From Ochromonadaceae sp. CCMP2298 (Eukaryota; Sar; Synurophyceae; Ochromonadales; Ochromonadaceae): a stretch of 26,495 bases of DNA. Where the stretch lies: contig MU633731.1 in the NCBI GenBank assembly GCA_026770595.1, positions 1-26,495 of the forward strand, in the 5' to 3' direction. Under the pieces are notes generated by a model. That model did no database searches, was not told the DNA's origin, and was given only the letters and a program-made list of their open reading frames with translations. Position numbers and translations under genes: made by a program. Every line of letters begins with the position of its first letter. The first letter of the stretch is position 1. Below are positions 2,891-26,495 of this stretch, piece after piece.

Positions 2891-3376
2891 GGCTGCTGCC
2901 TCGATGTGTTGGAGGTTGCGACCGGACGGTTGTCGCGGGCGACAGAGGACGCGCTGGACCAAGACCGAGTCTGAGCCGCAAGAGCTCGCGCCTGTCCAAC
3001 CCCGTGCCAGCGGAGAGAAGGAGCTGTGAGCTCGAGAAATGCTAGAACGCAGCACTGGCAGAGCGAGTGAACCAATGCCAGAATACGTGTAGGAAGGGCC
3101 TTGGTCTTCAGATGGCGATAAAATTGTGCAGAGACCGAATTATAGTTGCACGAAAATGGGACAAAAGGGGGGGACCTCTTTTACAACGGCTCGCTCTGAA
3201 TGTTGTCGATGTGAAGCTGGAGCTCTTCTACCAGCTGTGGCCGAACTGCTGTCGCTCAGCTGCAGCATCTACAGCAGTTCTGGCACTCTGCGGGCGCTTC
3301 TATTCGACCGTGGGATTCGGGTCTGATCAGAATCGCTAACAGCGGCCCCACGCGTCTTTCGGAAGCTCTTAGAACG
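2891..3376. promoter_or_regulatory. Divergent spacer between GT61 (-) and TTLL (+)
   Basis: This is 486 nt between the two start codons and must hold both 5' UTRs and promoters. No TATA box or clear shared element was found. The left part is GC-rich and the part near 3100-3180 is AT-richer with a run of G. Confidence 0.4.
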
Positions 3377-3853
3377 ATGGAGAAGGAGAAGCCGTTTCTG
3401 TATACTGATCTCATCCCGCCAGATGAAGTGGCCAACTACCAACCCGACGACGAGGACGATGTCATTCCGATCCGGACCTGGTCCAGAGGCAACCCCTACA
3501 ATATCGAGGGCGGATCGTTTCTCTCCGCAGGCCGGAAGGCTTACGAGAGAGAGTCAGGGTCGACGGACGGTATGTTGAACTATACTTCCATCGAGCAGAC
3601 CTTCGAGGACCAGGAGAAGGCCATGGTCAAGAAGGGCAAGAGCAAGCACGAAGAGTCTGGGATGGAGTATGCGGAGGAGTTCGAGCGGGAGTATGAGGGA
3701 GAGGAGAGTGGCGGCGAGGTGGGAGAGGAGGGGGATGGGGGGGAGGAGGACGATGGAGACGAGGAGGAGATCATGCCTTCTTATGGAGCCCGGGTGTCCA
3801 TGGAGGGCGACCAGGTGAACATGGGCGAAGACTATGAGGAAGATGAGGAGGAC

Positions 3854-3887
<34 letters not shown>

Positions 3888-6800
3888 GGGAAGAGTGGGA
3901 GGAGGGGGAAGAGAACGAGGAGGAGGGGGAGGAGGGGCAGGACCAGCTGTTCGAGGAGGTGGCTCTGTCTCCCAAGGAGCTAGACCTGCTGGCCTCTGGT
4001 CCTGCGGAGGGTCTGGAGGATCTGCTGCACATTATGGGCGAGTACGATGAACTGGTCAACTACCTTGACAGTCCCCGGAAAGACAAGAAGGGGGGCCAGG
4101 GGGATAGCGGCAGCAAGCGCGCCCGCGCAGCGGCCACGATGGCAGGCTTGAAGCAGGGGGAGAAGGGGAAGGGGCTGAAGGGGAAACAAAGTCACTCCAA
4201 GGCCTCGTCGCTGCTGGACGGGGACGAGGTTTCTTCTGGGGACAGCGAGGCCTCCCCCGCATCGCACGCCCTCACCCTGCACGCGTTGCACCGGCAGACC
4301 AAGAGCATTGTCGCGGCGGCCGCGGGGGTGTCTGGGGCTGGGGCGGGATCTGGGGCGGGATCTGGGGCAGTGTCTGGGGCGGGCAAGAAGCAGGCCACTG
4401 CCCCCAAGCGCGTGCCCCGCAAAGTGCACGAGGACCTTGGCATGGGCGGCGGCCCTGGTGCTGGCTTTGGTGCTGGGTTTGGGTTCGGGGCAGAGGGAGA
4501 CCTGGATGAGCGAGTGCCCCGGAAGGTCAATAAGGGCGGCAAGGGTAATGGCAAGAAGAAGCTGTTCGGGTACGCCAAAGAGCAGGCATTGCAGGAGGCG
4601 ATCAAGAACAAGGTAGTGGGTATGGAGGGGCGGGTGGCTAGGAAGAACAAAGCCTACCTGGCGTCGCTGGCCGAGGGGCGGCGCAGGGAGGAGGAGGAGA
4701 TTAGCAAAGAGCTGGAGCGAGCACAACAGCGGAGGAAGAAATTCAAAGAGGCTTTGTTGGAGAAGGCGCTGAGAGCCAGGCAGTTGCAGGAGCAGGAGGA
4801 GGCGGCGCTGGAGATGGAGGACCAGAGTGCGGGTGCGGGGGTGGGGGCGTCGCCGGGCGCAGGCTCGCCCGGCCGTCCGAAGAAGAAGAAGGAGGAGGGT
4901 CAGGGGGGATCGGGCAGCAAGGTACCTGGTTTCCTTGCCCCTACGCGTGCCTGCCCCTCGGTGCAGCCGAGGACTGCCGCGCAGGTGGTGTTCACGGAGG
5001 AGGATCTGGTCAGGCAGGAGGCGGAGAAGCGTGACCACATTGCCGGCATCAGACGAAAATTCAAGGAGCAACATAAGAAGATCTTGCTAGCGCTGGCGAC
5101 CAAGAAGCAGGAGGAGGAGCGCAGGGTGGAGGGGGAGGTGCTAAGGGAGGCGGCGATGAAGGAGAGGAAGAGGATCAAGCTGCAGCGTATGCTGGAGCAG
5201 AAGCAGGACAGACAGGAGGCGGGGTCGGCAGATGACGCTGGAGTTGAGGGAGCGGGAGTGGAGCGCAGACCAGTACCCCCCAAGGCGCCCCACTCTGCAG
5301 GTTTTGTGCGCGGAGCTAGCGCGCCCGTGGCTTCTGACGCCTCTGACGGGGCCTCTGACGCAGACAGGCGCGGCGCTGCGGGGGGCGGGCTAGCTGCTAT
5401 CCGTCGACGCGCCCGGTCGCTCAGCCAGCCAAATGCACCGGGCAGCAGTGCGGAGGGGCAGGGGGGTCAGGGGCTGTTGGCGCAACAGCGGCTGGCCCTA
5501 CAGGAGGAAAGAGAGGCGGTAGACACGGCGGAGGGGCTGGAGCGCGAGGCTGCGCAGAGGCAGGTGCGCAAGGCTGCATCGAAGGAGCAGCACGCCAAGC
5601 TGTCCTCCTACCTCACGGGCATCGCTGAGAAGCGCAAGGAGGAGGAGGGGGAGCGCAAAAGGAAGGAGGAGAGGGCGCGCAAGCGTAAGGACCTTCTTAG
5701 CAGCCGCCTGATGCAGGAGGCAGCGGAGCGCAAGCTTATGGGGGTGCAGGACGACCTACCTAGGGCAGAAAGGGCAGAGCCCGATAGAGCAGAGCGCGAA
5801 AAGGAGAGGGCAGAGAGGGCGGAGAGGGAGCGGGTAGAGAGGGTGGAGAAGGTGGAGAGCAGGCGGCCGGAGGAGCAGAAGCCCCCCAGACAGTCTGCCT
5901 TCGCCTCTGCAGTGGAGGCTAAGGAAGCACGCGAGGCCAGGGATGCCAGAGAATTAAGGGATGCTGCTAGGGATGGGGCCAGATTGGCGGCAAGGGAGGC
6001 AGCGAGGGAGGCTAAGGAGAAGCCCAGGAAGGAGGAGAAGCCGGAGAGGGAGAGGGCTGAGAGGGATAAGACGGAGAGGCCTGAGCGGAGTGAGAAGGAG
6101 AAGTCTGACAGAGCGGAGAGGGAGAAGAAGCGTCGCAGTGAGCTTTCTTCCTCCACCGAATTCGACAGCAAGGACAAGGACGGCAGCAAAGAGAATCGCG
6201 AGAATCGCGAGAACAAGGAGAACCGGGAGAGCTACGTCTCAAACGTGCCTGCTAGAGACTTCGCCGACTGGAAGCGCAAAAACGGCTGTCCTGCTGATGC
6301 GCAGGTGTTCGCAATGACTGGCTGGTATCCCTGCGTTAAAGAGGCCCTCCTACAGAGAGGCTGGTTCTTCAACCCCGACTCCGCCTCCTCACACTTCCAC
6401 CTCAAGTGGACCCTGCGCTCAATCGACGTGGCCCAGGAGGTCCTTCTGCCCTGGCAGCTGACCAACCACTACCTCAAGAACGTAGCGATCACCACCAAGG
6501 CTGGCCTGATCAAGTCCCTGCAGAGTCTAGTGTGGACAGCAGACGTGGACGCGAACGACATCATTCCCAGGGGCTATGACCTGTCCAACACGGGGGAGAT
6601 GCAGGCCTTCATTGACGACTTCAGATGCCAGAAGGCGGAGGGTGTGCTGAAGAATCTGTACCTATTGATGACTGGGGTGGAGGCGCCAGACCTGGGCAGG
6701 GACAGTAGAGGAGGGGGGGCCAAGATGCATGCTGCTGTTATGGAGCTGGCGGACGAGGCAGAAGGGGTAGAGGAAGGAGCAGAGGAAGGGGTAGATGATA

Positions 6801-8839
6801 GGGCTGATGATGGGGTAGAGGAGTCAACGGAATCGTCCGTCGGCACCATCCAGTCGCCCAAGCAGCAAAACGATGCAACCACTACTGTCACTGCAACTGC
6901 CGTTGTCACGGCTGGCGCTGTCGCTGCCACCGCTGCCACTGGTGCGGAGGGGCAGGACGAGATCGAGCTGCCCCCCACGCCGCTGCTGCTCTCCTCCTGC
7001 CGCGTCAACAGCGCGGTCTTCGAGGCTGCCTGCTGCGTGCTGGAGAAGCAAGTGAGGCCCTACGAAGACAATTATGTCGACGACGTGCAGCACGGGGAAA
7101 AGGCGGTGTCAGACCTGGAGTGGGAGCTGCTCGCCTACTGTGTCCAGAGCATACACGAGCTGCCCCCCGACGTGCCCGAGGCCGTAGATGCCTTTCTAAG
7201 AGATAGGGAGGATCCGGACAACAAGCCCTCTGTGCAGCAGCAGCGCGATAAGCGCAGGCAGCATCGGATAGACGAGGAGGCGCGCGAGCAGGCTGGGCAG
7301 ATGATAAAGCAGTGTCGGGAGCTAACACAGGAGGACCTACAGCGGATGCACTACCTGCTGTGCTCCCTGCTGCAGCGCGGGCAGGCAGGCATCAACGGCG
7401 CCTGCAGCTCCAACATGTGGATCGTCAAGCCCGCCGCCAAGTCCCGAGGTAGGGGCATCTCCACCTTCGCCGACCTACCCAAGCTACTCAAGTACGTAGA
7501 TGCGGGCTCGGGGCGGTACGGGGGTTCCCAGTGGGTGGTGCAGAAGTACATCGAGAACCCTTTGACGATCGCTAAGCGCAAGTTCGATCTGCGTCAGTGG
7601 GTGGTAGTGACCAACTGGAATCCCCTGACGATCTACTACTACGACGAGTGCTATGCGCGCTTCGGCGTGGACGAGTACTCCACCGACGCGGCTGACCTTG
7701 AGAACAGCTTCGTGCACCTAGTGAACAACTCGATCACCAAGAACTCAGCCAACTTCAACAAGGGCTTCGAGGCGGAGAATGGAGAGAGGGTAGAGGGGTA
7801 CATGTGGGACTACGCACAGTTCTCCAAGTTCGTCAAGCATCAGTCAGGGTCCGATTTGATGGATTCGAAGATCCGACCGCGCATGAAGGAGATCGTCACG
7901 TGGTCCCTGATGTGTGCATCGGAGACCATCGAGCACCGAAAGAACTCGTGGGAGCTGTACGGCTTCGACTTCATGATCGACGACGCCTACAACGCCTGGC
8001 TGATCGAGATAAACTCCTCACCCGCGTGCGACTACTCCACCCCCGTTACAGAGCGGTACGTACAAAAAGCACTGGTGGAGCTGCTGGCAGTGGTGCTGGA
8101 CACGCGTGAGTGGGATGCAGCACCCAAGAAGGGCCGTGGGGATGCCCCTGCTACTGGGGGGTGGGAGAAGATCTACCAGGGGCCTTTGCTGGACATGCCT
8201 GTGGGCGCGTTTGGCACGGATATGAGCCTGAAGGGGGAGGGGGTGAAGGGTCTGCCGAGAGCCTCTCAGGGGCAGACCCTGCAGCTGGACGTGAGCAGCA
8301 AGCTGACGTCGGGCAGGAGTTTGCGCGCGAGCTCGGAGAAACTGCCGCAGGGGGCGCAGGCCTCCCCCAACCGCCCCCCGCGCCCTACCCGCCAGCTCAG
8401 CAGCGGTGCGGGTATGGGAGTGGGCAGTGCAGAAGGTGCTAGCTACGGGGCGCGGCGGGCAGCAGGCGGGGGCACAGCACAGCACATCTCAGAGGAGGGG
8501 GGCGGGGAGGGGCAGGAGGACGGGGAAGGGGAGACGCCTACCTGCTCGGACGAGGGGGAGGGGGGAGCTTTTGACGATTCTGACGACGACTCGTCTGCAG
8601 GCAGGACCCGGCAGCCCAAACCCAAGGTTATGCTGAGCTCGCTGACCAAGGGACAAGCGAAGGCGAAGGTGTCCCCTCGCGGCGAAGACGTGGGTGTTGG
8701 CGGGGGTATGGGTGGGGGTATGGGCGGGGGCGGGGGCGTGTTGGGCGTGGTGGGTCGCGGGGCCAGTAGCAGGGGCATGAAGGTGGGGTCCACAGCCGTA
8801 GCCCCCATCCCCATCAAGGTGTTCTCCGTGGAGTTCTAG
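3377..8839 (+). CDS. TTLL3/8-like tubulin glycylase with long N-terminal extension
   Basis: A tubulin-tyrosine-ligase-like ATP-grasp enzyme of the type that adds glycine to tubulin side chains in cilia. It has 1,820 residues in a single exon. Residues 1-950 are not catalytic: an acidic Glu/Asp stretch (about 100-195), Gly/Ala-rich linkers, then long charged Lys/Arg/Glu segments likely to form coiled coils. The TTL region spans about 954-1585, interrupted at about 1116-1200 by an acidic and Thr/Ala-rich insert. Visible ATP-grasp signatures are WIVKPAAKSRGRGI from W1348 (K1351), VVQKYIENP (K1390), KFDLRQWVVVTN (1402-1413) and WLIEINSSP (E1544, N1546). The pairing of SRGRGI with KFDLRQW and NPLTIYYYDECY resembles TTLL3/TTLL8 glycylases rather than glutamylases. 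A Gly/Ser-rich tail ends the protein. It implies a ciliated or flagellated organism. Glycylase versus another TTLL activity is inferred from motif resemblance only. Confidence 0.9.
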
Positions 8840-9958: not shown

Positions 9959-12900
9959 TCAGCGGCGGCGGAAGGACAGAGAAAGGGTTAACGGTTTCGC
10001 CCCGTTCGCCCCGTCGCCCGCCTCCTCCGCATCCCCGCCATCCTCTGGCCTCTTGCGTTTTCTAATGCTAAGCGACAGGCTGGAGGTTGGCTGACCATGT
10101 CCCAGCCCCAGCTGCTGCTGCGCCAGAGCCTGCGCGGAACTGGAGCTGGAACTGCTCGCCGCACCCGCACCCGCCGCCGCCGCTCCCGAGCTAAGTTTCT
10201 GCTTCTTGCCCGGCGCCGGACCCCCACCCCCGCCATCATCTGCTTGCTTGGCCTTGCTTGGCCTAACCCTAACCCTGGGCTTGCTCTTGGCCTTGGGCGC
10301 TGGGGCCTGCACGTCTGCCGCACTACCCATGCCCATGCCACCCATACCCCCGCCCATGCTCTCCTCGTCCTCGTCATCCTCCGCCACACTGCTAAGCTGC
10401 ATACTGGGCACGTGCGTTTCGCGGTAGAGCATGTGGTGCCCCACGGGCAAGGGTGTGTACCCCTTATAGACGCCGACCGACACGCCGTAGCGCCTGAGCA
10501 GCGGCAGCGAGCGAGAGTAGAACTCCGCCCTGATCGTCTCGCAGTCCTGGAAGATGGGGGACGTGTCGAGGTTGAAGGTGCGCGCGTTGTGGCTCATCAG
10601 CGCCAGGTCACCCTCCAACTCCTCGAAGTAGCGGTAGTCTGCGCGTCTCAGCTTTATGCCGATCTGCTTCAAAGCGATGGGATGCGTCACCAGCTGGTAG
10701 TAGTCGGGGTACAGGGCCTTGGGGGGCTTGTCCACAAACAGCGCAGCCAAAAAAGACCCGTCATCTCGCTTGATCTTCTGCAGATCGTTGACGAGCGTGA
10801 CGAGGTCCCGGAATATCGTACCCGCCAGCTTATCCACCTTCTGCGCCTTCTCGGCCTGCGCCTGCTGCGCGGCTACGTCCTGCTGCTTCTCTATGAAGCG
10901 CTGGAACTGCTTCTCCGTCATGTGGTCGTCGTAGGCCACCTCCTGCCTGTTGCGCATGACCTTACCCGCCACCTTGTACCCGTCCTCCTCCTCCTCTGAA
11001 ATCTCCCCCTCCTCTCGCTCTCGCTCCTCCACACGCTCCTTCCGGCGCCCCTTCTTCTTATCCAACTTGACAGACATCTCCATCTGCGTGCCCTTGGCCT
11101 GCGTGGTGATGTTCATCATATCGCCCATAATGGTCTGGTACTTGGTAGGCCAGCAGTCGTTCGTCAGCCACTCAGGCAGCTCGTGGCTCTCCATCAGGCG
11201 GGGCGGCAGGGGAGAGGTGTAGCCCAGCTGCTCCCAGCGCAGCGTCCGCTCCTGTATGTAGGTCGTGTCTAGGTTCTGGTACAGCTGCAACTCCTGGACA
11301 GAGGAAGCCATCATTTCGTTGAGCGCGTCGTCCTCCCCCTGGTCCGTGTCCACCACCTGCTCCTCGTCCCCGTCCGCCAGCGCCGCCCCCGATGACCACT
11401 CCTTCAGCAGGCTCTCCATCATCTCCTTACTCTCCTGCTGCGCAGAGGCCTTTTTTTGCGCGTTGAACTGGCCCGCCTCCACCACCAATCCGTTAAGATT
11501 TCGCTTGTCCGTCGCCCGTGCTAGGATGCGCTCCTCCACGGGAGAGTTGGTGAGCAGTCTGAACACACGCACCTCTTTCTTCTGCCCGATGCGGTGGGCT
11601 CGGTCTTGCGCCTGTTCATAGTGCATAATATTCATAGTACATTATGTTAGTACGTTGCATAAATAGTATATATATTACCGTTATATTGATAGTACATATA
11701 TAGTACAAATTTATAGAAAGTACCTGTGCGTCCATCATGGGGTTCCAGTCGCTGTCGAAGATGATGACCGTGTCCGCAGTGGCCAGATTGATCCCCACCC
11801 CGCCCGCCCTAGTGGACAGCAGGAATATGAAGTAGGGGGAATCCTCCTTGTTGAAGTTGGCTACCCGCAGCTCTCTCTCCTCTGCGGTGGTGTTGCCGTC
11901 CAGGCGGCAGAAGGGGTACCCCCTGTGCAGGAAGAACTGCTCGATAAAGTTCATGGACTCCACCATCTGAGAGAACATCAGCACCCTATGACCCCCCGCC
12001 TTCAGTTTGGGCAGCATGCGATCGAGCAGGGCGAACTTCCCAGAGGCGCGTATGAGGTCCTCATCCACATTGTAGTCGCGCATGAACAGGTAGGGGTGGT
12101 TGCACACTTTGCGCAGTTGCATGATGGTGTTGGATAGACCGCCCGAGGGCCCGTCTTTCGCCTTGTTTAGTCCCTTATGCACGATGGACTGATACATCTT
12201 ACGCTGCCATCCCGAGAGGTTGCAGCGCAGCACCTTCTCCACCTTCTCCGGAAGCTGCCCCAGCACCTGGCTCTTTACTCGCCTCAGTACGAAGGGCCTC
12301 AGCACCTCGTGCAGCCTGTGCACGATCAGCAACCGCTCCTCCTGAGACAGGGCCGCCTCCGCTGCCTCCTCGTCGCCCCCCGCGGCCGCCACCGCGCCCT
12401 CTACTTTTGCCTGGTTTCTGAAGGCCGCGAATGGCTTGTTGAACCACTGGTCAAATGTGTCCACAGAGCTAAAAATGGTAGGCAATAGGAAGTTCAGCAG
12501 TGCCCACAGTTCTGGGAGGTCGTTCTGCAGAGGCGTGCCGGTGAGCAGAATGCGGTGCTTGGACTGGTACACTGTGCCTAGGATTTGTGCGAACTTTGAC
12601 TGCGCGTTCTTCATGCGGTGCCCCTCGTCCACGATGATGTACTGCCACACGAGCTTGCGCAGATACGACTTGTCCTTCATGATGTACTCGTACGTGGTGA
12701 GCAGCACATTCAGCTGGCCAGCCTCCACCTCCTCCTTGAACAGACGCTTGCGCTCGTCAGGCGTGCCCTTGTACACCACCTTGATGCAGTCGGGGGCCCA
12801 CTTGTTGAACTCGTTGACCCAGTTGGACAAGGTGGAGAGCGGCACCACTATCAAGAAGGGGCCCATGTTGTTCTTGTACTCCATCAGGTAGCACACCATG

Positions 12901-14857
12901 GAGATCGTCTGGATGGTTTTGCCCAGCCCCATCTCGTCTGCCAGGATGCCATTAAGGTTGTTGTTGTACAGAGATATGAGCCACTGCAGGCCCGCCAGCT
13001 GGTACTCCTTCAAATCCCCACCGCGCATCATAGTGGGCTGCACTACTGTCTCCACCTTGCTGTGCGTCTCATTGTAGTAGTTCTTAGAGGTGGGCTCGAT
13101 TTTGCTCCGCGGTGAACTTGCCTCCTCCACCGCCGCCTCCTCGCCCTCATTGGCCTCCTCCCTTTGCTCCTGGATCATCCGGTTGATGGTGGATATATAC
13201 GAGTCCGTCTCGTTGAGTAGGAACTTGAGTCGACCGTTCTTGGTCTCCTGCACGAGGTTCGTGTACGCCTCCATGTCGTTCTCTTTCAAAGCCTGCAGTC
13301 GCCTGATCTCCGCCCTAGCCCCGTCCTTCTCCTTGCGCACATCTGCCGCCTCCACATGCGCCTTGACCGCCCTCGCCGCTTTGCCGCACTCCATCTTCTT
13401 GTTCTTGTGAAACCGGAAGAATTCGTCTTTGTGGGCCATCAGTGTCTTGTGGTACTCCGTGGAGCGTCTCTTGCGTCGATCCTCAACCTCCAGTCTCCTG
13501 CGTCTCTCCTCCCTCTCCCATGCCTTCACGTCCTTGCGCATTTGCTTCTTGGTGCGGTAGAAGTTGCGGTAGGGCAGCAGCTCTGCGAGGTAGTTGGAGG
13601 GACCCAGGGCCACAGCGGGATGGAAGCTGGGAACCGGGAAGACCATCTGGGTGGGCCGCTGGGAGGAGGGGTACCACTTCGCATCTTCTTGTGCGATGAC
13701 TGCTGCTGCGGAGGACAGGCCGGCTGCTGCTGCGCGCGCCTCTGTGCTCACCGTCACCACGTGCTGCAGTGCCTGTGCGCGCATGCGCCGCTGCACTGCC
13801 CATAGGGGAGGGGGCAGCAGGGACACAGGGGGGGCTACTGGTGCCACTTCCGCTACAGGCGCCCCTGTGCTAGTGGTCTTGCTATCGCTACTGTTCGTCA
13901 CGCTAGGCTTGCCGTTAGCCACAACGACCGTTATGCTCGAGCTGGAGGGCTCGCCCCTGTTGCCGTTGCCCTCTGCGCTGCCGTTGCCATCCATACTAGC
14001 ACCAGCCGGTGTCTCCGCAGAGGAATCTGCCATAGCGCTCACCACATCCTCTGTCTTCCCTGCCTCCTGCGCTGGTACCACATCCATAGCACCCACTACC
14101 GCCTCTGCCGTCCCATTCTCTGCTGCTTTCTCTGCACCGGCCTTGGTTGTAGCAGCATCGGCAGCGGTGGCACTGGAAGCTGCACCGATGGCTTTCAAAG
14201 CTACCGGGGGCTCCATTGCCTTTTTGGCTGCAACTCTGAGCACAGACTCTCTCAGGGAGACGGCGTAGGGCATGGTGACTACCAGGGGCAGGTGCGCGGA
14301 TTTCATGAAACAGCCGAAGTCCTGTAGGGAAAGAGAGTAGATAGGCATGGCGGGAAGATCGAGGAGGTGTTAGGAATGAGCAGGAAAAGGGAGTTGACAA
14401 AGAGGAAAAGTAGAGAGTGCAATCGCAGTCAGGCGCTGCAAGGAGAGGGCAGCGGACTGGCGACTGGGCCGGTCAGCAGTCCGCTAGGAGGTTGCGATCG
14501 CGCACTCACCGACGATGCAAAAGAGATTGCCCCATCCTGCGGAAAGCGGCTGGGCCCGCAGAAAAGCAGCGAGTTGAAGCACTGCCAGCTCAGGGAGGGC
14601 GCGGCGGGCTGGGTAGGCGCCGGCACGGGCGCAATGACGACCTCCTTGTGCACCTCCTTGGCAGCAGAGGCAGCCACAGCAGCGGCCCTTAGAGCCTCGG
14701 CTTGGCTGATCTGCAGTGCCTCTATGAGCTTGGGTATCTTCGACTCCGCGAACTGCTTCTGGAGATTTTTAAACTGGCGGATCTGACTCTGCAGTGACTC
14801 TATCTGCTGCGGGTTCAGAGCGCTGGGAAGAGAACCCGGGTTCGGAACCGCGTTCAT
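9959..14857 (-). CDS. BRM/Snf2-type SWI/SNF chromatin-remodelling ATPase, 3 exons
   Basis: Catalytic ATPase of a SWI/SNF (BAF/RSC-like) complex, which slides or evicts nucleosomes in the nucleus. Exons are 14857-14510, 14321-11724 and 11611-9959; both introns are in phase 0, giving 1,532 residues. Domains in order: QLQ (about 13-40, [16 protein letters not shown]), HSA (about 361-430, basic, binds actin-related proteins), Snf2 ATPase with [11 protein letters not shown] (about 575-585), DEGH (681-684), [23 protein letters not shown] and [10 protein letters not shown] (from 983), SnAC-like region (about 1034-1114), and bromodomain (about 1242-1354) with the acetyl-lysine-binding Asn at 1329 in ARTFN. 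This domain order is diagnostic of BRM/BRG1/STH1. The C-terminus has a Gly/Met/Ser-rich linker and a basic tail. Intron 2 falls between ATPase motifs V and VI. All key motifs are intact, so the enzyme should be active. Confidence 0.97.
11612..11723 (-). other. BRM intron 2, AT-rich and internally repetitive
   Basis: A 112-nt intron with donor GTACTT and acceptor GAACAG, strikingly AT-rich beside its exons. On the transcribed strand it contains four spaced GTACTA/GCACTA motifs after the donor GTACTT. One of them forms a perfect TACTAAC branch-point heptamer (plus-strand coordinates 11646-11652), about 35-40 nt from the acceptor. Confidence 0.9.
14322..14509 (-). other. BRM intron 1
   Basis: A 188-nt intron with donor GTGAGT and acceptor CCCTACAG in phase 0. 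Removing it joins ISFASS to DFGCFMKS and links the QLQ exon to the ATPase exon. Retained, it would add an in-frame stop. Confidence 0.85.
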
Positions 14858-16089: not shown

Positions 16090-17214
16090 CTAGTCCCCGC
16101 CAATGCCCGCCTGGCGCCTGGCCTTGCCCTTGAGCACCTGCACACGCAACAGCGCACATACGAGCGTGAGCAGCAGCAGCGTGGCCAGGAGGTCCTGCGG
16201 CTGACTGCTCGACACGTCCACTGCACCCACCACCACGAGCAGCAAGTAGAGGGGAGCCACGAGGAACAGTAGAGAATTGAGGAAGAGGGGCTGCAGCTGC
16301 GCGCGCAGGCTGGTCACCACTGCCGCCTCTGCCTCCTCTGCATCCCGCTGCCTGGCGCTGAAGCTTGCACTGGTACTAGTACTGGCCCGCACGCTGTCCC
16401 CCACCAGCGGCATGGCGGGAGGGTCAGGAGATTCGTCAGCGCTGATCCAACTACGGCTGTGACCCCGACCCCCCTGCCCGCTGCGCAGCCCTACGCCCAA
16501 GCCGTCACTCCTACTGCGCAGAAGCACCTCCTCCTCCCTCGACGCTCTTGTCTGCCTCTCAGTTGTAGACGCAGATCCAGACGTAGACGGGGCCGATGTA
16601 GAGGCAGAGGCGGGCGCGGATGCGCGGGTGAGCTGGGTAGAACTACCCACCTCTGGCATCTGCAGGGGCAGGGGCTGGTACACGTGCCTCACCTGAGATG
16701 GGCTCTGCAGTCCCGTAGGCCCACATATACCCTCCATACCCATATCCATATCACCCATGCCCGCATCCGAGGATTCATCGGCCTCAGATATGGGGCTCTG
16801 CAGAGCGAATGAAGAACCAATAGACCCCACAGAGGAAGGAGAGCTCAGAGATGCAATACGCGCCTTGGAGCGGATGGCGAGCGACTTCACGAGGCGCTCG
16901 CTGATGCCGAGAAATTCCTCCGCCTCCCCCAGCAAGGGCGTCTGCGCCACCAGCAGCTGCAGCAGCTCGTCGAAGCCTGCCTTCCGGCGATCTTTTGTGG
17001 ACTGCGCGCTGTTGCTAAATAAACTTTTGTTGGGGAACTTGTATTCGCGCGAAATGGAACTCTTCGCTACGGCGTGGAGTGCTTTGAAGGCTGAGTACCT
17101 CTTTCCAACAGTGTGGGAACGACTCCCATACGTCACAGTTACAATATACGTGGTGATTATCTCGCCCGTCGGGCTGGTCACATCCTCGAGGTCGGAGATT
17201 ACCGCGCTAAACAT
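16090..17214 (-). CDS. PX-domain protein with C-terminal membrane hairpin
   Basis: A 374-residue single-exon protein. Residues 1-110 are a PX phosphoinositide-binding domain: the GKRYSAF motif with R39 and Y40, the FPNKSLF loop (60-66) and a basic KDRRK helix start (74-78), then a Leu-rich helix ending in EEFLGI. These positions correspond to the residues that contact PI3P in sorting-nexin-type PX domains, so binding to endosomal or vacuolar membranes is likely. A Ser/Thr-rich, low-complexity middle (about 120-300) follows. The last 70 residues hold two hydrophobic helices (about 308-330 and 339-357) with a short loop and a basic tail, a likely membrane hairpin. I do not recognise the whole architecture. 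Role inferred: tethering or trafficking at a PI3P-containing membrane. It is divergent from the phosphate transporter gene. Confidence 0.85.
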   Translation of the reverse strand: MFSAVISDLEDVTSPTGEIITTYIVTVTYGSRSHTVGKRYSAFKALHAVAKSSISREYKFPNKSLFSNSAQSTKDRRKAGFDELLQLLVAQTPLLGEAEEFLGISERLVKSLAIRSKARIASLSSPSSVGSIGSSFALQSPISEADESSDAGMGDMDMGMEGICGPTGLQSPSQVRHVYQPLPLQMPEVGSSTQLTRASAPASASTSAPSTSGSASTTERQTRASREEEVLLRSRSDGLGVGLRSGQGGRGHSRSWISADESPDPPAMPLVGDSVRASTSTSASFSARQRDAEEAEAAVVTSLRAQLQPLFLNSLLFLVAPLYLLLVVVGAVDVSSSQPQDLLATLLLLTLVCALLRVQVLKGKARRQAGIGGD

Positions 17215-17875: not shown

Positions 17876-19847
17876 ATGTTCTTCGATCCGACCGCCAAGT
17901 TCTTTAAATCAGTCGCTCGTGGGTTGGCCGTACTGCTGCTCGTCGCTGCATTCTCCGACCCCTCCATGGCCATTGTGTACGACAACACCAAGGATTTCAC
18001 CTGGCTCGTCGTGTTCGCAGGCATAATCGCGTTCTTGGCTTCCTGCGGCATCGGCGCAAACGATGTTGCGAACGCCTTCGCGACGAGTGTAGGAGCCAAG
18101 AGTGTCACGATCTTCCAAGCAGTCTGCATCGCGAGCGTCTTCGAGTTCCTGGGCGCAGTGCTTTTGGGCTCGCAGGTGGTGAAGACGATAAGTAAAGGAA
18201 TCGCGGACACGGACTGCTTCGCGGACAACCCCGGTTTGCTCATGTACGGCATGACCGTCGTAATTATGACCACCGGCTTGTGGCTGGCTATCGCCTCATA
18301 CTACGAGATGCCCGTGAGCACCACGCACAGGTACTATCCCCTTCTCCTTCTCCCCACCCCTACCCATCCCCCACCCCCTCACCCCTTACTCACCCTTACC
18401 GCCCCCCAACCTCATCCCCTCACAGCACTATAGGCGGGATCATCGGTATGACCATGATGACTAGAGGCTCCGAATGCGTCCTCTGGTCCGAGCATGCGGA
18501 CGAGTTCCCCTACCTCAACGGCGTGTCTGCCATCGTCGTCTCCTGGGCCGTGTCTCCAGTGGCCAGCGCCTGCATTGCGGCAGCGCTCTACGGCATGACG
18601 TACCTCCTCGTGCTAAAGGACAAGGAGAACTCCTTCTACCGCGCCACGTGGGCCTTCCCCATCATTGTGGGCTTCACGGTGTCCATCAACGCGGGCATGT
18701 TCATCCTCAAGGGCGCCAAGGGAAAGGCCGAGGAAATGGGCACGGACGATATCATCAACAACGCAAAAGACGGAGACGGACACAAGCTCGCGATCGTGCT
18801 GCTCATCAGCGGTGCGGTGTCCTTCGCTGTCACGATGATGCTTACGCCCTTCCTGGTTAAGAGGTGTGAAGAGGCGGTACAAGCTGAGGCGGCGAAGTCG
18901 GTCACTGGGCTGGAGGCGAACGAGGCTGGCACCATCAAGGCCATCAAGAGTGAAGATGCCAGAGAGGTGAGCTCCTCCTCACATCGCAGTGCACTTACCC
19001 TCGCTACTGCTTCCCCTCCTGCACCTTTCAATCCCCCTTCTCGATCTTTTACTTACGACCTTACCTTCTCAATGCCCCTCCCCACCAGGCGAAGGAGACT
19101 CAGGAGGATGACTGGATGACCATCTGGATGACCAAGAATCTTCCCACCGTCTTGAAGGACGCCGTGGACTACGTACGCTACCAGGTCAACCGCGACCCCC
19201 ACGATATCCTGAAAGAGGATCATAACCAGGACAAGATCACGGAAATGCAGGACGTGACAGTAGGCATCAAGGCTGTGGTGGACATGCACAACCAGTGCGA
19301 GCGCCACGACCCCCGCACCGAGGAGCTGTTCAAGTATGTCCAGGTCTTTACTGCCATCGTCGACTCCTTCTCCCACGGTGCCAACGACGTGGCTAACGCC
19401 ATGGGCCCCTTCGCAGCCGTGTACGTCATGTATAGGGATAACACCGTCGTCTCCTCGAAGGACATCGGAGGCGACATGTACTGGATCCTAGCTATCGGAG
19501 GGCTGGGAATCGTGCTAGGCCTGTCCACCTACGGGTACAAGATCATGACCGCCCTGGGCGTTAAGCTCGTGACCGTTACACCCTCCAGAGGGTACTGCAT
19601 CGAGCTGGGGGCCGCCTTCGTGGTAATGTTCGGCTCCACGCAGGGCTGGCCGCTGTCAACCACCCACTGCCAGGTGGGCGCCACCGTGGGTGTGGGGCTG
19701 TTCGAGGGCACGGGGGGCGTGAACCCGCGCACGCTGGGCATGGCAGTGCTGGGCTGCCTCGCCACCCTGGTAGTCTGCGGGATGACCGCTGCCCTGATCG
19801 TGGGACCTAACCCGGAGGGCTCGCCTAGTGCATACGGTAGTTCCTAG
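17876..19847 (+). CDS. PHO4/PiT-family inorganic phosphate transporter, 3 exons
   Basis: A membrane symporter importing inorganic phosphate with Na+ or H+. Exons are 17876-18330, 18426-18966 and 19089-19847 (phase 2, then phase 0), giving 584 residues. Both halves carry the family's duplicated signature: GANDVANAFATSVG at 60-73 and GANDVANAMGPFA at 429-441. The first junction rebuilds the conserved STTHSTIGGIIG motif and the second half has LSTTHCQVGATVG. About ten or more hydrophobic helices are visible. A cytoplasm-sized hydrophilic loop (about 300-415), rich in charge, separates the halves; intron 2 falls in it. The N-terminal hydrophobic stretch LAVLLLVAAF may be a signal peptide or first helix, so plasma membrane versus plastid or vacuole cannot be decided. 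ATG 17876 is the first start in the frame before this helix. Confidence 0.97.
18331..18425 (+). other. Phosphate transporter intron 1
   Basis: A 95-nt intron with donor GTACTA and acceptor CTCACAG, almost wholly pyrimidine-rich. Its removal rebuilds the conserved STTHSTIGG motif, which proves the junction. Confidence 0.93.
18967..19088 (+). other. Phosphate transporter intron 2
   Basis: A 122-nt intron with donor GTGAGC and acceptor CCACCAG, pyrimidine-rich. Removal puts the second half of the transporter in frame (EDARE joined to AKETQ). Confidence 0.9.
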
Positions 19848-20115: not shown

Positions 20116-20604
20116 CTACTGTGGCTCAGAGGGTTGCCGTATATATGTCAGTAACACGCAGAACAGGGCAGCGAGCCAGGACCTGAGAGCTAGAACACTT
20201 GAAGACGGTGCCGCAGTGGGAGCACTGCTCGGATGGCTGGTCGGTTGCGTCGACGGCTGAGCGCTGGGCACCAACGCGGGCTGCCTAGTGGGATCTGCGG
20301 AGGGTTGTATGGTGGGGCCTGCGGAGGGCTGTTTGGCGGGGCCTGCGGAGGGCTGTTTGGCGGGACCTGCGGAGGGCTGCTTGGTGGGGCCTGCGAAGGG
20401 CTGCCCCTCTCCGCCCATTGCGGGGAGAGGCACGCCCCGCTTGTGGAAATACGCGCCTCTACCCAGCATCTCCTGCGCTTCCTGCGGATCAGAGGAGGGC
20501 GATGGTGGCAGAAAGATTACCTCCTTCGCTGAGAGAGCAGACACGCCCTCGTCCTCCTCGTGCTCTTCTCCCAGCTTGCGCTGCATCTTGTTCATCTTGT
20601 TCAT
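20116..20604 (-). CDS. Pro/Ser-repeat protein with PSAGP repeats and hydrophobic C-terminus (probable)
   Basis: An open frame whose first ATG gives 162 residues; it is open further upstream to about 20718 with non-ATG starts. A charged N-terminal part (MNKMNKMQRK) is followed by about four and a half copies of an eight-residue repeat of the form QPSAGPAK, then Ser/Pro/Thr-rich sequence (PSTQPTSHPSSAPTAAPSSS). It ends in a hydrophobic helix (LALRSWLAALFCVLLTYI) with a short tail, as in GPI-anchor signals. Such PSxxPT repeats are common in surface and wall proteins of secondary algae. No signal peptide is in this exon. A hydrophobic stretch in another frame at about 20694-20762 (RPIAATISCLLVLNLWSLL) could belong to an upstream exon: an 86-nt phase-0 intron with a weak GTGGTG donor and a CCAGCAG acceptor would join them, but no ATG precedes it. 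Whether this is a complete gene is uncertain. Confidence 0.42.
   Translation of the reverse strand: MNKMNKMQRKLGEEHEEDEGVSALSAKEVIFLPPSPSSDPQEAQEMLGRGAYFHKRGVPLPAMGGEGQPFAGPTKQPSAGPAKQPSAGPAKQPSAGPTIQPSADPTRQPALVPSAQPSTQPTSHPSSAPTAAPSSSVLALRSWLAALFCVLLTYIRQPSEPQ
20292..20405. repeat. 24-bp tandem repeat encoding the PSAGP repeats
   Basis: Units begin at 20292, 20316, 20340, 20364 and 20388 (last one partial) and share the core cctgcggagggctg. The two middle units are identical. A 24-bp period keeps the frame, adding eight residues per copy on the minus strand. Confidence 0.88.
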
Positions 20605-21053
20605 CTTCTGCTGGTGTGGGGGTGTGTGTGGGTCTGCAGCGCATAGGAGGAGCCGCTCATTGCCTGCGCTGGCATCGATTTTATCCGCACCACGCCCTGC
20701 ATACACAACAGTGACCACAGATTCAAGACCAGCAAACAGCTAATGGTAGCAGCGATGGGCCGTATCCGGTGGTGTTGAATAATCCCCTGACAGGAGCCTG
20801 ACAGGTGATCGACAATTGCTGAATAGGTTCCTCGCTTCCATCCGGAACACCTCCGATTGATCAACCCCCCCCACCCCCATCTGCCTTCCCATCAGCCTTC
20901 CCCTTCCCAGCCCCTTGCTGATGACTCCAGCACGAGAGCGATGCCGCACGTCGAACGAAGGGTGCGCTGGATTTCCGCTCAAACAAATTTCCTGACAAAT
21001 CAGTTATAAAAACCCTCAATTATGATAGGTTTATAGAGTAATGCTCAGTGAAC
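20605..21053. other. Spacer upstream of the short ORF and photolyase-like gene
   Basis: It may include an upstream exon of the minus-strand repeat gene. Also visible are an 11-bp tandem duplication with core cctgacagg (20786-20794, 20797-20805) and a TATA box at 21005-21012. Nothing else is recognised. Confidence 0.45.
21005..21012 (+). promoter_or_regulatory. TATA-box-like element
   Basis: TATAAAAA lies 42 nt upstream of ATG 21054 and 342 nt upstream of ATG 21354. A start about 25-30 nt downstream would put both ORFs on one transcript. This is inferred from spacing only. Confidence 0.4.
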
Positions 21054-21353: not shown

Positions 21354-22289
21354 ATGGACGACCGAGGAGACAGAAACCCCACAGACCCCACAGACTCCAG
21401 AGATCTTAGGGACCTGGGGCCTCTGGTGGCGTTTGCAGAGGAGCAGCTGCAAGGGGTCGGACTGGGCGGACTGGGGCCAGTTTCCCTGCACTCCCTGCGC
21501 GTATGCCTGCCACCAGCCGGAGTGAACGTCAGGAATGCCAGAGATAGTCGGAATGGCAGTGACAGCGGGTATACTGGGGATGCTGGGGGTGGCGGGGATA
21601 GGGACGGAAATGGCGGAGGGGAGTGCCTGCGCGTGCTGGATACGGTGGACAGGGCGCCGCCCCCGGGGCTGTGGAAGGCATTGCGCGAAAGCGAGCGGAC
21701 GCGGGAGCGGGAGCAGGAGCGGGAGCAGGAGCCCCCTTCTCTAACTCAAGCCCAGGGCAAGCAGAGGCAGGGGCAGAGGCAGAGGCAGAGGAGGGGCTCG
21801 CAGGGAGGGAGTGGTGACAGATCCGATTCATCACACACACATACGCACACGCCTGGGGACACCGCCGCATCCGCTGCCCCTATCCACACAGCACTTGCCC
21901 CTGTGGTCGCTGAAGCTGCCCCGGTGGACGCTACTGATGGCGGTTCGCAGCGCAGGTCTTCCAGGCTCTCGTCGAGGCACGGGAGCTCGCTCAGTCACAC
22001 ACAGGGGCAGCAGGAGCAGACGCAGGGGGCCCAGTCCCAGACCCAGTCCCAGTCCCAATCCCAGCTTCAGTACTATTCTCAGTCGCAGTCTCAGTCCCAG
22101 TTCCATGCTGACTCCCAGTCTCAGTCCCAGTCCCAGTCTGCTTTGCTGAGCGGTGGCAGTAGGGCCAGCAGACGCAGCAGAGGAGCTGAGGGTGGTGCAC
22201 CAGTACAGCAGATGCAGAGGACGCGGAAGAGAGCGGCAGATTTAGAGGCAGAAGCAGAGGCTGAGGCAGCGGCAGAGGCAGAGGCAGAG

Positions 22290-22321
<32 letters not shown>

Positions 22322-25300
22322 AGCGATAGAGACAGAGGCAGCGACAGAGGCAGAGGCAGCGACAGAGGCAGCGACAGAGGCAGAGGCCATCGTCGCCCCG
22401 TCACCTTCCTCTAACAAGCGCGCCCGAAGCCCTCTCAGCTCCCGCGGCTCCCGCACGCGCAGTGGGAGCACAGGGGGCAGTGGAAGCCGTGCCCGCCTAG
22501 GCAGCGTGAGCAGTGTAGACACAGGAGGCTTAGGGGGCGAAGGGGGCTCGGGCGATAGTGAAAATTTATTGGGCAGAGGCTTGGGGCCGGAGGAGAGCAG
22601 GGGGAGCAGGGGGAGCAGGGAGAGCAGTGGGAGGAAGGAGAGCAGGGGGGCCACCGGGAGCAGGGAGGGCAGTGGTCAGAGGGTGCTCAGGAGCAGCAGG
22701 CTCAACCACAGTTTAGATTGGAGCATGAGCGGCGATGGGGACGGGGACGAGATTGGGGGCTGCGCTGTGGGTGGCGTTGGTTCGGACATGAGCAAGAGAG
22801 GGGATTTGGAGGGAGAGATAGAGGGAGACAGGGGAGGAGGCGGAGGGGGGTGTATAGATAGGGGGAATCGCTCTCCTGGAACAGAAAGGAAGAAGCAGAG
22901 GCTGAGGGAAGGACAAAGGCAGAGGGAGGGGCAGAGGGAGCTGCCGGGCATTTCGGACCTACCCCCCAAGGCACTGTTCTGCTCCTCACCCGTGTCTGCA
23001 CCCACGCCCACATCTGCACCCTCTCCTGCAGCACCTACACACGTGCCCATACCTGATCCTCATAGTGCTGTTATTGCCGATGTCGGCGATGCAAGTTGTG
23101 CTTGTGCTCCCGATGCCGGTGCTCCCGATGCTGGTGCTGGTACTGGTTCTGCTGCGTGGCCTGTGCGGTTCTCACGCAGGGGAGCAGCCAGTCAGGTCAT
23201 GCCCCCGCCCGGCATCAACCCCTGCACCGTCCCCACACTCCCTCCCGCGCCCATACTCGCTCAAGCATCCGCACTCGCAGCGCCCCCCGCCTGCACCGCA
23301 GTGTCCGTCACACCTGCGGGGGCGGGGTCCGATGCAGTGTCTGCGACTGCGCCTGTGCCTGTGCCTGACTCTGTGTCTATGTTTGTGCCTGACTCTCCAC
23401 CGGCACCTGTGCCTGCACCTGTGCCTGCCTCAGGCTGGGCTAGAGGAGACTTCCTGTCCACACTGTGCGCCAGAGAGGCCCGGGGTAGGCACTGGGTGCT
23501 CAACGTACCCCTCCCCCTGCCCCTCCCCGCAAGCGCTGGCGACGCCCCCTCCTGTCCAGGCCCCAACCCTAGCCCCTGCCCCTTAGAGCTCAACCCCGAC
23601 CTCAGCCCCTTAGAGCTCAGCCCCGACCTCAGCCTGATCGACGGGGGCGGCGGCAAGGTGGTCTACTACTGGGTGGGCCAGACTTTACGCACTCAGGACA
23701 ATCTTGCCCTGGCCGCAGCCGTGCACCTGTCAGTGGCCCTGGGGCTGCCTTTGGTAGCGCTGGTGCTGGTGCAGACTGTGGCGCTGCGGGGACTGCTGCA
23801 GTGCTCTCTGGGCACGCACCCAGGCCCGAACCCAGACCCCCATACACCCCACCTAGGCACCAACACCCCCCACCCTCTACACCCAGTCCCCTACACCCCA
23901 AGCACAGGCCCTCATACCACATCTTACTCAGGCCCCCACATCCCCTACCAAGCCCCCTACCCAGGCTCCCACTTCGGCCCCCATCTAGGTCCCCAGCAGA
24001 GCCCTTCTTGCCCCTACCCCTCCTCTTTGCATATGCAGACACCAGCCCCCAGTAGACCCGGCAGCAGCGCCGCACTAGTCACCCTGCCTAGCACCAGCAA
24101 CAACACCAAAAGCAGCAGCAGCAACAGCAACATAGCTTATGCCACAGGCACAGGCACAGGCGCAGTGGTGACGACAGAGAAGCCCCCCAGCCACCCTGCC
24201 CCTGTCACTGCCTCTGGTGCTCGCAGTACGTACAGTGGTGGTCGGGAGGCTTTGCAGGCAGCTGTGCTGAGGAGGAGCGCAGCTAGGCTGTCTGCTCTGT
24301 CTGCCCTGCAGGCTGAGCTTCAGCAGATGGGGGTGCCGCTGCTGGGCATAGCATATGCAGCAGAGGACATGCAGGTGTCCCTGGGCCCCAACCCCTACCC
24401 CCCATTCCACATACCCTACCACCCTTCTGCCCCGCATGCCCCGTGCGTCACAGGGTCAGGGGGGTCCATGCCCCAGGCCCTGTTTGTGGCAGAGCCAGAG
24501 GGGCAGGGGCAGGGGAAGCAGGGGCAACCAGCCCCCCATCCCGTGGAGCACCCCCTGGCGGAGATTCTCATAGCCGCTCTCTCAAAGTCTAGCTCCCTGC
24601 CCGGCCTGCGCCCGCCCCTGTTCCGCCCCCAGGGCCTCAGGGCCTATCCCCCCTACACCGCCGCTGCCCTCTTCTGCGACGGAGCCTCATGTCCAGTGAC
24701 GCGTCTGGTGGCAGCTGCGGTGGGGAGCAGGCTGGGGTTGGCGGTGGTGGCTCTGGACTCGAATGCACTCACGCCCGTGCCCCCGCCGCAGTCGCTGTCG
24801 CAGCATAATACTAAGCAGCAGCAACAGTACAATTATGAGCAGCAGCAGCGGGTGCGGGGGCGGGGATCGTTCGCACCCTTCTTCGGTTCGCAACTACAGG
24901 CAGCGCTGCGCTGGGGTGAGGGGGGCAAGGGACAGAGCGGGGAAGGAGGCGAGAAAGCGGGCAGGGGACAGGGCCTGGGTGCTGGCTGGTGCTTTGACTG
25001 GGAGGTAGAGAGTGAGAGGGAGGGTGAGAAGGGGAAAGAGAATGAGAAAGAGAAGGATGCAGCGGAGGTGGGTATGAGTATGGGTGTGGGCGCGTGTGCG
25101 CCAGAGGGTGTGGCGGCGGCTGATGCGGAGGCGGAGGCACTGCTGCTGTGTGCTTTGGGCGAGGTTCAACGGTCCTGCCTGCAGCTTCCTTCCTCCACCT
25201 CCACCTCCACCGCGCCCATGCCTGTGCAGCAGCCCAGCAGCCTGAGCCTGGAGACTCCATGCCAGCAGCTGCGTCTGGTGCAAGTGGACTGGGCGCAGGT

Positions 25301-26495
25301 GCAAAGGGCGCTGGGAGGGTACTACGGTGGTGGTGGGGGTGAAGGTGGCGGTTGCATTAGTAGTGGTAGCAACAGTAACGACAGTGGCTGTGCCGGTGAC
25401 AGTAGCTGTGGCGATGGCTTGCTGGATCGACTGGGTGGCTGGAGTGCTGCGGGTGCACAGGATGTGCTGGCTGGGTACCTGGAGAAGGGAAAGCAGAGGG
25501 GCGACGGTGGCAGTAGCAGCCAAGGCGTGGGCGGGGGCTGCTGCGACGTGCTGGGCTGCTGGCTGGCGGGCCTACTGTCCCCCACAGACATGGCCAGAGC
25601 CGCACTGATGCCACCACCACTACTTCTGCAACTGCCGCCACCGCTGTCACTGCTCGCTGCGCACGAGTGGCAGTGGACAGAGCAGGAGGAACAGAGGGTC
25701 CAGGGGACACAGGAGCAGCAGGAGGCAGAGGGGGCACAGGAGCAGCAAAAGACTCAGGGGATTCAGGGGACTCAGGGGCAGCTGGTGGTGCAGGGGCAGC
25801 AGGGGACCCAGGCCAGGGGTCCCCTGTTCCACGCGCTGCTGCAGGCCGAGCTCACTAGGCACCGCTGCTGCCTTGCCATGGGGGGAATGACTGGGGATGG
25901 GGGAGGTGCGGGGGGAGATGCGGTTGATGGGGGTGAGAAGGGTGCGGGGGGTTTGGGTGGGGGACTAAGCATGGCTGCGGCACTGCCACACATAATCCCC
26001 ACGGCCCCGCCCACCCACACCCTCACACCCCACAGACAGCCCCAATACCTCTCCCTGTCCCTGTTTCACGGTGGGCCCTTGCCCCAGAGGCTGCTGTGGG
26101 CTGCTGACTTGCTGAAGCTGCTGCCCCCGCAGAAGGCTGAGCTGCTGCGGATGCTGGACGCGCAGGGAGCCTTTGCGGGGGCACGGGCGCTGGAAGTGGC
26201 TGGGGGAGCGGGGGGCTTGGGCGCAAAAATGGGCGGAAATGGGGTCGGGAGCAGAAGTGTGTGCAGGCGCGGGAGCGGGGGGGGAAGTCTGCAGGCACGG
26301 CTGTGCGCGGGCCTCACCGGCTGTGACGCCTTCGACCACCTGCAGAGACGCCTGCTTACAGGCCTGCCGCTGTATGGGTGCCTTGGTGTGTGCTGGCTGC
26401 TGCACGCTGCGTTGCTGCTGGGATCCGCTGCAGCCGCGGTCTCTGTGTGCGGCAAACTGGGGGCTGCCCTGTGCAGGCACGGGATGGGGGCGGGC
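21354..26495 (+). CDS. Giant class II photolyase/cryptochrome-like protein, 3' end outside window
   Basis: An uninterrupted frame of 1,714 codons from ATG 21354 (good context, GCCATGG; in-frame stop at 21333) to the window edge with no stop. Residues 1-767 are low-complexity: Gly/Arg/Ser-rich, a Gln-Ser tract (222-261), a Glu-Ala tract (298-345) and Pro/Ala/Val-rich repeats. Six blocks then follow in the order of class II photolyases: VVYYWVGQTLRTQDNLAL (768-786, Rossmann-like antenna start), 964-1006 (LQAELQQMGVPLLGI), 1102-1143 (ending VVALDSNALTPV), LGCWLAGLLSPTDMARAAL (about 1400-1418), FHALLQAELTRHRCC (about 1492-1506) and DAFDHLQRRLLTGLPLYG to W1681. Class II enzymes are about 450-500 residues; here the same span exceeds 900 because of insertions. 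Several cofactor and substrate positions look replaced, so it may be a signalling or structural relative rather than a repair enzyme. The frame is certain, the family likely, the function unknown. Confidence 0.8.
22018..22137. repeat. Gln-Ser coding repeat (cag-tcc hexamers)
   Basis: Imperfect cagtcc/cagtct hexamers encode a Gln-Ser-rich tract at residues about 222-261 of the photolyase-like protein. Confidence 0.8.
22245..22388. repeat. Glu-Ala coding repeat (gag-gca hexamers)
   Basis: About two dozen hexamers of gaggca with gcgaca variants encode alternating Glu-Ala/Thr at residues 298-345. Variation among the copies preserves the reading frame. Confidence 0.85.

Follow-up and report, generated by a model that had tools for sequence, protein, structure and literature searches.

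A single frame of 1,714 codons, open to the contig end, occupies one side of a 26,495-nucleotide contig (MU633731.1 of assembly GCA_026770595.1) from Ochromonadaceae sp. CCMP2298; the window analysed here is this whole contig. The frame contains an antenna domain of the photolyase superfamily, and the class II catalytic motifs are not seen in the part that was sequenced. We regard it as a genuine oddity that offers one firm domain but falls short of demonstrating a new photoreceptor. The explanation that we favor, although we give it somewhat less than an even chance, is that the frame encodes a strongly and fast-diverged paralogue of class II cyclobutane pyrimidine dimer (CPD) photolyase, with a flavin adenine dinucleotide (FAD) domain that is diverged or incomplete, and probably without repair activity. 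The parts of the frame discussed below are as follows.

21354..26495, plus strand: open frame, residues 1 to 1714, with an ATG at 21354 and no stop before the contig end
21354..23642, plus strand: leader, residues 1 to 763, which includes low-complexity tracts rich in Gln/Ser, Glu/Ala or Pro
22244..22387, plus strand: 24 tandem copies of the 6-base unit AGAGGC, coding for Glu/Ala
23643..23807, plus strand: antenna block 1, residues 764 to 818 (first strand, D-N motif, first helix, second strand), from PF00875 and shuffle z scores
23808..24236, plus strand: low-complexity insert 1, residues 819 to 961, rich in Pro, His, Thr and Ser, which may be a stop-free intron
24237..24383, plus strand: antenna block 2, residues 962 to 1010 (helix, third strand), z 6.3 on class I
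24384..24536, plus strand: insert 2, residues 1011 to 1061
24537..24791, plus strand: antenna block 3, residues 1062 to 1146 (fourth and fifth strands with a helix between), z 2.7 on class II
24792..26495, plus strand: residues 1147 to 1714, the place of the FAD/helical domain, not recognizable by Pfam, conserved columns, motifs or chains

The original prediction of a frame open for 1,714 codons to the edge is borne out. The other five frames of the same stretch carry 30 to 50 stops each. In 300 dinucleotide shuffles made in 150-base pieces, with three frames read in each, the mean was 40.3 stops per frame and the minimum 25, and no run stayed open beyond 425 codons. Tandem-repeat rows inside the frame, some of which overlap, have a period divisible by three in 16 of 16 cases; the same is true of 3 of 4 rows elsewhere in the window and of 13 of 13 in the neighboring 1,820-codon frame. 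Given the absence of stops relative to the shuffles and repeat periods that keep the frame, the 1,714 codons are very likely translated. Single stop-free introns could still lie among them, as introns do occur in the genome's ordinary photolyase gene, described below. One can envision that one or both inserts are introns, free of stops and a multiple of three by chance, and that the frame overstates the length of the protein. The introns of the ordinary gene are short and C-rich, and insert 1 is 45% C with no in-frame stop where 3.4 would be expected, as such a reading would have it. However, a complete lack of stops across leader and inserts together would be unexpected, given the shuffle mean, and the tandem repeats keep the frame in every row; we consider a split gene of this sort improbable. 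Because the window covers this contig from end to end, it does not include the 3′ end of the gene, and the last 300 bases of the frame had no match at an E value of 0.001 or less on the other contigs of the assembly (11,247,203 bases in 724 contigs).

The evidence for the antenna domain comes from both Pfam and shuffle tests. At E 10, the only family found on the whole frame was PF00875 (DNA_photolyase), with 17.2 bits at residues 771 to 808, below the cutoff of 26.6. The score rose to 22.1 bits for residues 764 to 1146 alone and to 30.1 bits, above the cutoff, when 764 to 818, 962 to 1010 and 1062 to 1146 were joined without the two inserts; this match reaches profile position 75 of 164, and the joining of block 2 contributes about 13 bits. 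For the shuffle tests, profiles were made from 113 class II proteins (391 to 619 amino acids, among 120 listed) and 78 class I proteins (of 80 loci). Twelve segments picked by eye were each compared with four profiles, forward and reversed controls, using 1,000 shuffles per segment. For block 1, z was 11.3 on the class II profile and 6.7 on that of class I, with neither reached by any of the 1,000 shuffles. The antenna-domain start with D-N proposed from residue 768 holds. Block 2 scored z 6.3 on class I and 0.0 on class II. Block 3 scored z 2.7 on class II (p 0.018), ending at the expected class II column VDAHNIVPC; it also gave z 2.1 on class I, but was placed there outside the antenna domain. 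Taken from sequence, block 1 leans to class II and block 2 to class I.

Three gap settings were used to read residues 764 to 1146 as an ordered chain on the class II antenna columns; they gave z 5.7, 7.9 and 11.5, reached by none of 300 shuffles in each case, and the reversed-profile control gave 0.35 to 1.1. Without block 1 (residues 819 to 1146), the chain gave z 2.5, 3.1 and 3.4, reached by 6, 1 and 2 of 300 shuffles, with 1.2 to 1.7 on the reversed profile. A MAFFT alignment to the class II set matched 23 of 58 antenna columns (shuffle mean 17.2; 5 of 100 shuffles reach it), and the first antenna string among eight class II motif strings matched 10 of 20 residues, which none of 200 shuffles equaled. 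Since the ordered chain beats all shuffles and PF00875 passes its cutoff once the inserts are removed, a photolyase-superfamily antenna domain is present in the frame.

Residues 1147 to 1714 behave differently from the antenna domain. Pfam found no family there at E 10. The MAFFT alignment matched 45 of 152 conserved class II helical-domain columns, while 100 local shuffles matched 46.0 on average and 61 of them reached 45, the Ala/Leu-rich composition making loose matches easy; this count is a blunt test, because the antenna columns themselves reach only 23 of 58 against the shuffle mean of 17.2. On the class II profile, the chain of residues 1147 to 1512 gave z 1.57, 1.65 and 0.75 (reached by 20, 20 and 62 of 300 shuffles), and that of residues 1513 to 1714 gave z 2.11, 2.52 and 1.18 (9, 3 and 32 of 300). 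The eight later segments had p values of at least 0.148 on both forward profiles; only reversed control profiles gave 0.060 and 0.037, for two segments. For the seven class II motifs other than the first, including the antenna motif VDAHNIVP, between 44 and 195 of 200 shuffles did as well; the catalytic-domain motifs tested were SPYxHFGQ, RRELxDNFC, LWNAAQ, RMYWAKKILEW and DGRDPNGY. Against class I, the helical-domain tests were at chance (z −0.29 and −0.12). PF03441 had no match in the window protein, a silence that is weakly informative because the genome's own class II gene was missed as well. For reference, the tryptophan triad of class II enzymes is given as Trp381-Trp360-Trp388, in Methanosarcina mazei numbering, in PMC5885780. 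The FAD domain is therefore unrecognizable in the sequenced part, where a weak remnant may persist. Because the frame runs off the contig, the domain may have decayed, be absent or lie beyond the edge, and the catalytic motifs may lie there too.

These results change the picture of six class II blocks in order that had been drawn from the sequence. Three segments, 764 to 818, 962 to 1010 and 1062 to 1146, are supported and correctly ordered, yet each is part of the antenna domain, the second scores on class I only, and the later ones are not shown. What survives of the class II identity is an antenna domain leaning to that class; an entire class II core interrupted by inserts does not, the catalytic domain being unrecognizable in the sequenced part. 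A significant profile match, whose absence had been named as a refutation, was obtained for the antenna domain; the remaining sequenced residues gave none.

Elsewhere in the genome, contig C163 carries an ordinary class II photolyase gene (about 1700 to 3740, minus strand), which TIGR00591 matches in pieces of 192, 148, 120 and 78 bits. It is normal in size and motifs, with short C-rich introns. The relatives listed for it include Ochromonas (55% identity) and Dinobryon (58%), both genera named by taxid, along with Tribonema minus (54%); a single-cell genome from a chrysophyte reaches 59% over 60% of the query, and animal sequences in the same list are mostly at 46 to 51%. PF00504 also identifies a chlorophyll-binding protein in the genome (87.2 bits), and this, together with the relatives of the ordinary photolyase, points to an ochrophyte-like organism. 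A 151-base copy of part of the ordinary gene, 92% identical, lies on contig C504 (L006, 1495 to 1645), with a second match of 73 bases (82%) nearby. TIGR00591 matched C163 and C504 only among the contigs of the genome. A PF00875 search of the genome at E 0.001 listed the C163 gene alone; since the window's own domain escaped this search too, further diverged copies may also have been missed. At the DNA level, the ordinary gene and the window frame share a match of 47 bases only.

No homologue was found at E 10 for residues 765 to 1714 among the 7,980 protein-collection candidates sharing most words, a list probably crowded by low-complexity words, or for the joined blocks among 7,994 such candidates. 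This, and an Ala/Leu-rich composition that eases loose matches, would be expected of a chance resemblance or a decaying pseudogene. Yet the joined antenna pieces pass the PF00875 cutoff, the antenna chain beats 300 of 300 shuffles and 1,714 codons run without a stop, and we consider either explanation very improbable.

Could the frame instead encode a functional photolyase or photoreceptor of class II type, with its FAD/helical domain wholly or mostly past the contig end and residues 1147 to 1714 as an expanded interdomain linker? The contig does end within the open frame, and the antenna domain, kept with its D-N motif, is already stretched by inserts. However, the 568 residues that follow the antenna domain show no recognizable FAD-domain motif, and no orphan FAD domain turned up on other contigs in the TIGR00591 search, in an assembly that may be incomplete. 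We think this unlikely, though a serious contender. The same silence in residues 1147 to 1714, with no Pfam or class II signal above threshold, might suggest an antenna domain fused to, or kept with, an unrelated C-terminal part of another kind, with no photolyase helical domain at all. The weak class II chain signal in residues 1513 to 1714 runs counter to this, as does a class II-like structure model (built with class II rows as input), and we find it rather improbable.

We return, then, to the diverged paralogue. In this reading the gene is nuclear, codes for protein and belongs to an ochrophyte-like alga. Its product retains the Rossmann-like antenna domain, stretched by the two low-complexity inserts sitting between strands and helices, and would have an FAD/helical domain diverged beyond recognition or incomplete. 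Repair of pyrimidine dimers would be left to the ordinary gene on C163. The oversized protein would most likely serve for binding or as a scaffold, with no flavin photocatalysis, and combine a photolyase fold with long disordered arms. The open frame, the antenna domain, the ordinary gene on C163 and the lack of class II catalytic motifs among the sequenced residues are shown; we infer that the protein descends from class II and not class I, along with the loss of catalysis, the disorder of the arms and the scaffold role. It is possible, but in our judgment unlikely, that this protein, at least 1,714 residues long with long disordered arms, is specific to its lineage, has kept the antenna domain, given up flavin catalysis and gained a light-sensing, nucleic-acid-binding or scaffold role undescribed for the superfamily. 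Should the FAD domain prove to be lost, we would have a photolyase-fold protein that no longer deals with flavin and that would help reveal other uses of the antenna domain; if it lies past the contig edge, the protein would be an exceptionally large photolyase, showing how much low-complexity load the fold tolerates. In either case, insert-rich algal genes can drop under standard domain cutoffs, as the window frame does when read whole.

The low-complexity leader and inserts described earlier are indeed present. The leader has no Pfam match above cutoff (the best, TFIIA, at 14.8 bits against 36.2). At least 47 DNA matches to the frame were found in the genome, one being the frame itself, and 43 of the 46 others fall in or around the Glu/Ala repeat. 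DNA resembling this repeat occurs in dozens of places genome-wide, for example at L099 to L105. The neighboring 1,820-amino-acid protein of the tubulin-tyrosine ligase family likewise has many low-complexity repeats. Low-complexity padding is a habit of this genome, and since such tracts recur across it, the size and layout of the frame are in part that habit. The layout had been put forward as lacking any described precedent. The size of the frame is unusual: at least 1,714 codons goes beyond the roughly 1,000 amino acids that a passage of PMC9498864 gives for the largest family members. Leaders and inserts of low complexity, however, are not peculiar to this frame in the genome.

Elsewhere in the window, the 1,820-amino-acid frame (3377 to 8839, plus strand) carries the ligase domain toward its end (PF03133, 218.2 bits), with numerous low-complexity repeats that keep the frame. 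Two adjoining frames at 9959 to 14348 (minus strand) encode SNF2 helicase parts and then SnAC and a bromodomain, and for this reason look like one SNF2/BRG1-type remodeler split by an intron. A frame at 16090 to 17214 (minus strand) has a PX domain barely above its cutoff (22.1 against 21.6 bits), a PHO4 phosphate transporter with at least two exons lies at 17876 to 19847 (plus strand), and a 200-amino-acid frame at 20116 to 20718 (minus strand) contains a 24-base tandem repeat encoding the disordered Pfam repeat "PT."

Among known systems, the closest comparison is with class II CPD photolyase (TIGR00591), for which structures have been solved from M. mazei (2xry) and rice (3umv). Block 1, through its first motif and its shuffle score, and block 3, through its VDAHNIVPC end, resemble this class. 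The window protein differs in its length (at least 1,714 amino acids against about 500), in a block 2 without a class II score and in an FAD domain that is unrecognizable in the sequenced part. When the frame was searched whole, TIGR00591 gave nothing at E 10; on the joined antenna pieces of this incomplete gene it gave 13.8 bits, against a cutoff of 550.05 that the genome's ordinary gene, searched in pieces, also fails to reach. Blocks 1 and 2 are also like class I photolyase of the Escherichia coli PhrB type, with the z scores given above, whereas block 1 fits class II better and the class I helical-domain scores stay at chance level. With the ordinary gene on C163 the frame has the antenna domain in common; that gene, unlike the frame, is normal in size and motifs, and has introns. 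Finally, an enlarged photolyase relative, a putative DNA photolyase of 848 amino acids that is chain Ff of PDB 7pua, came up in the search with E. coli PhrB only. We take 7pua to be an assembly particle of the trypanosome mitochondrial ribosome, which would make this chain a precedent for a non-repair role of a photolyase relative.
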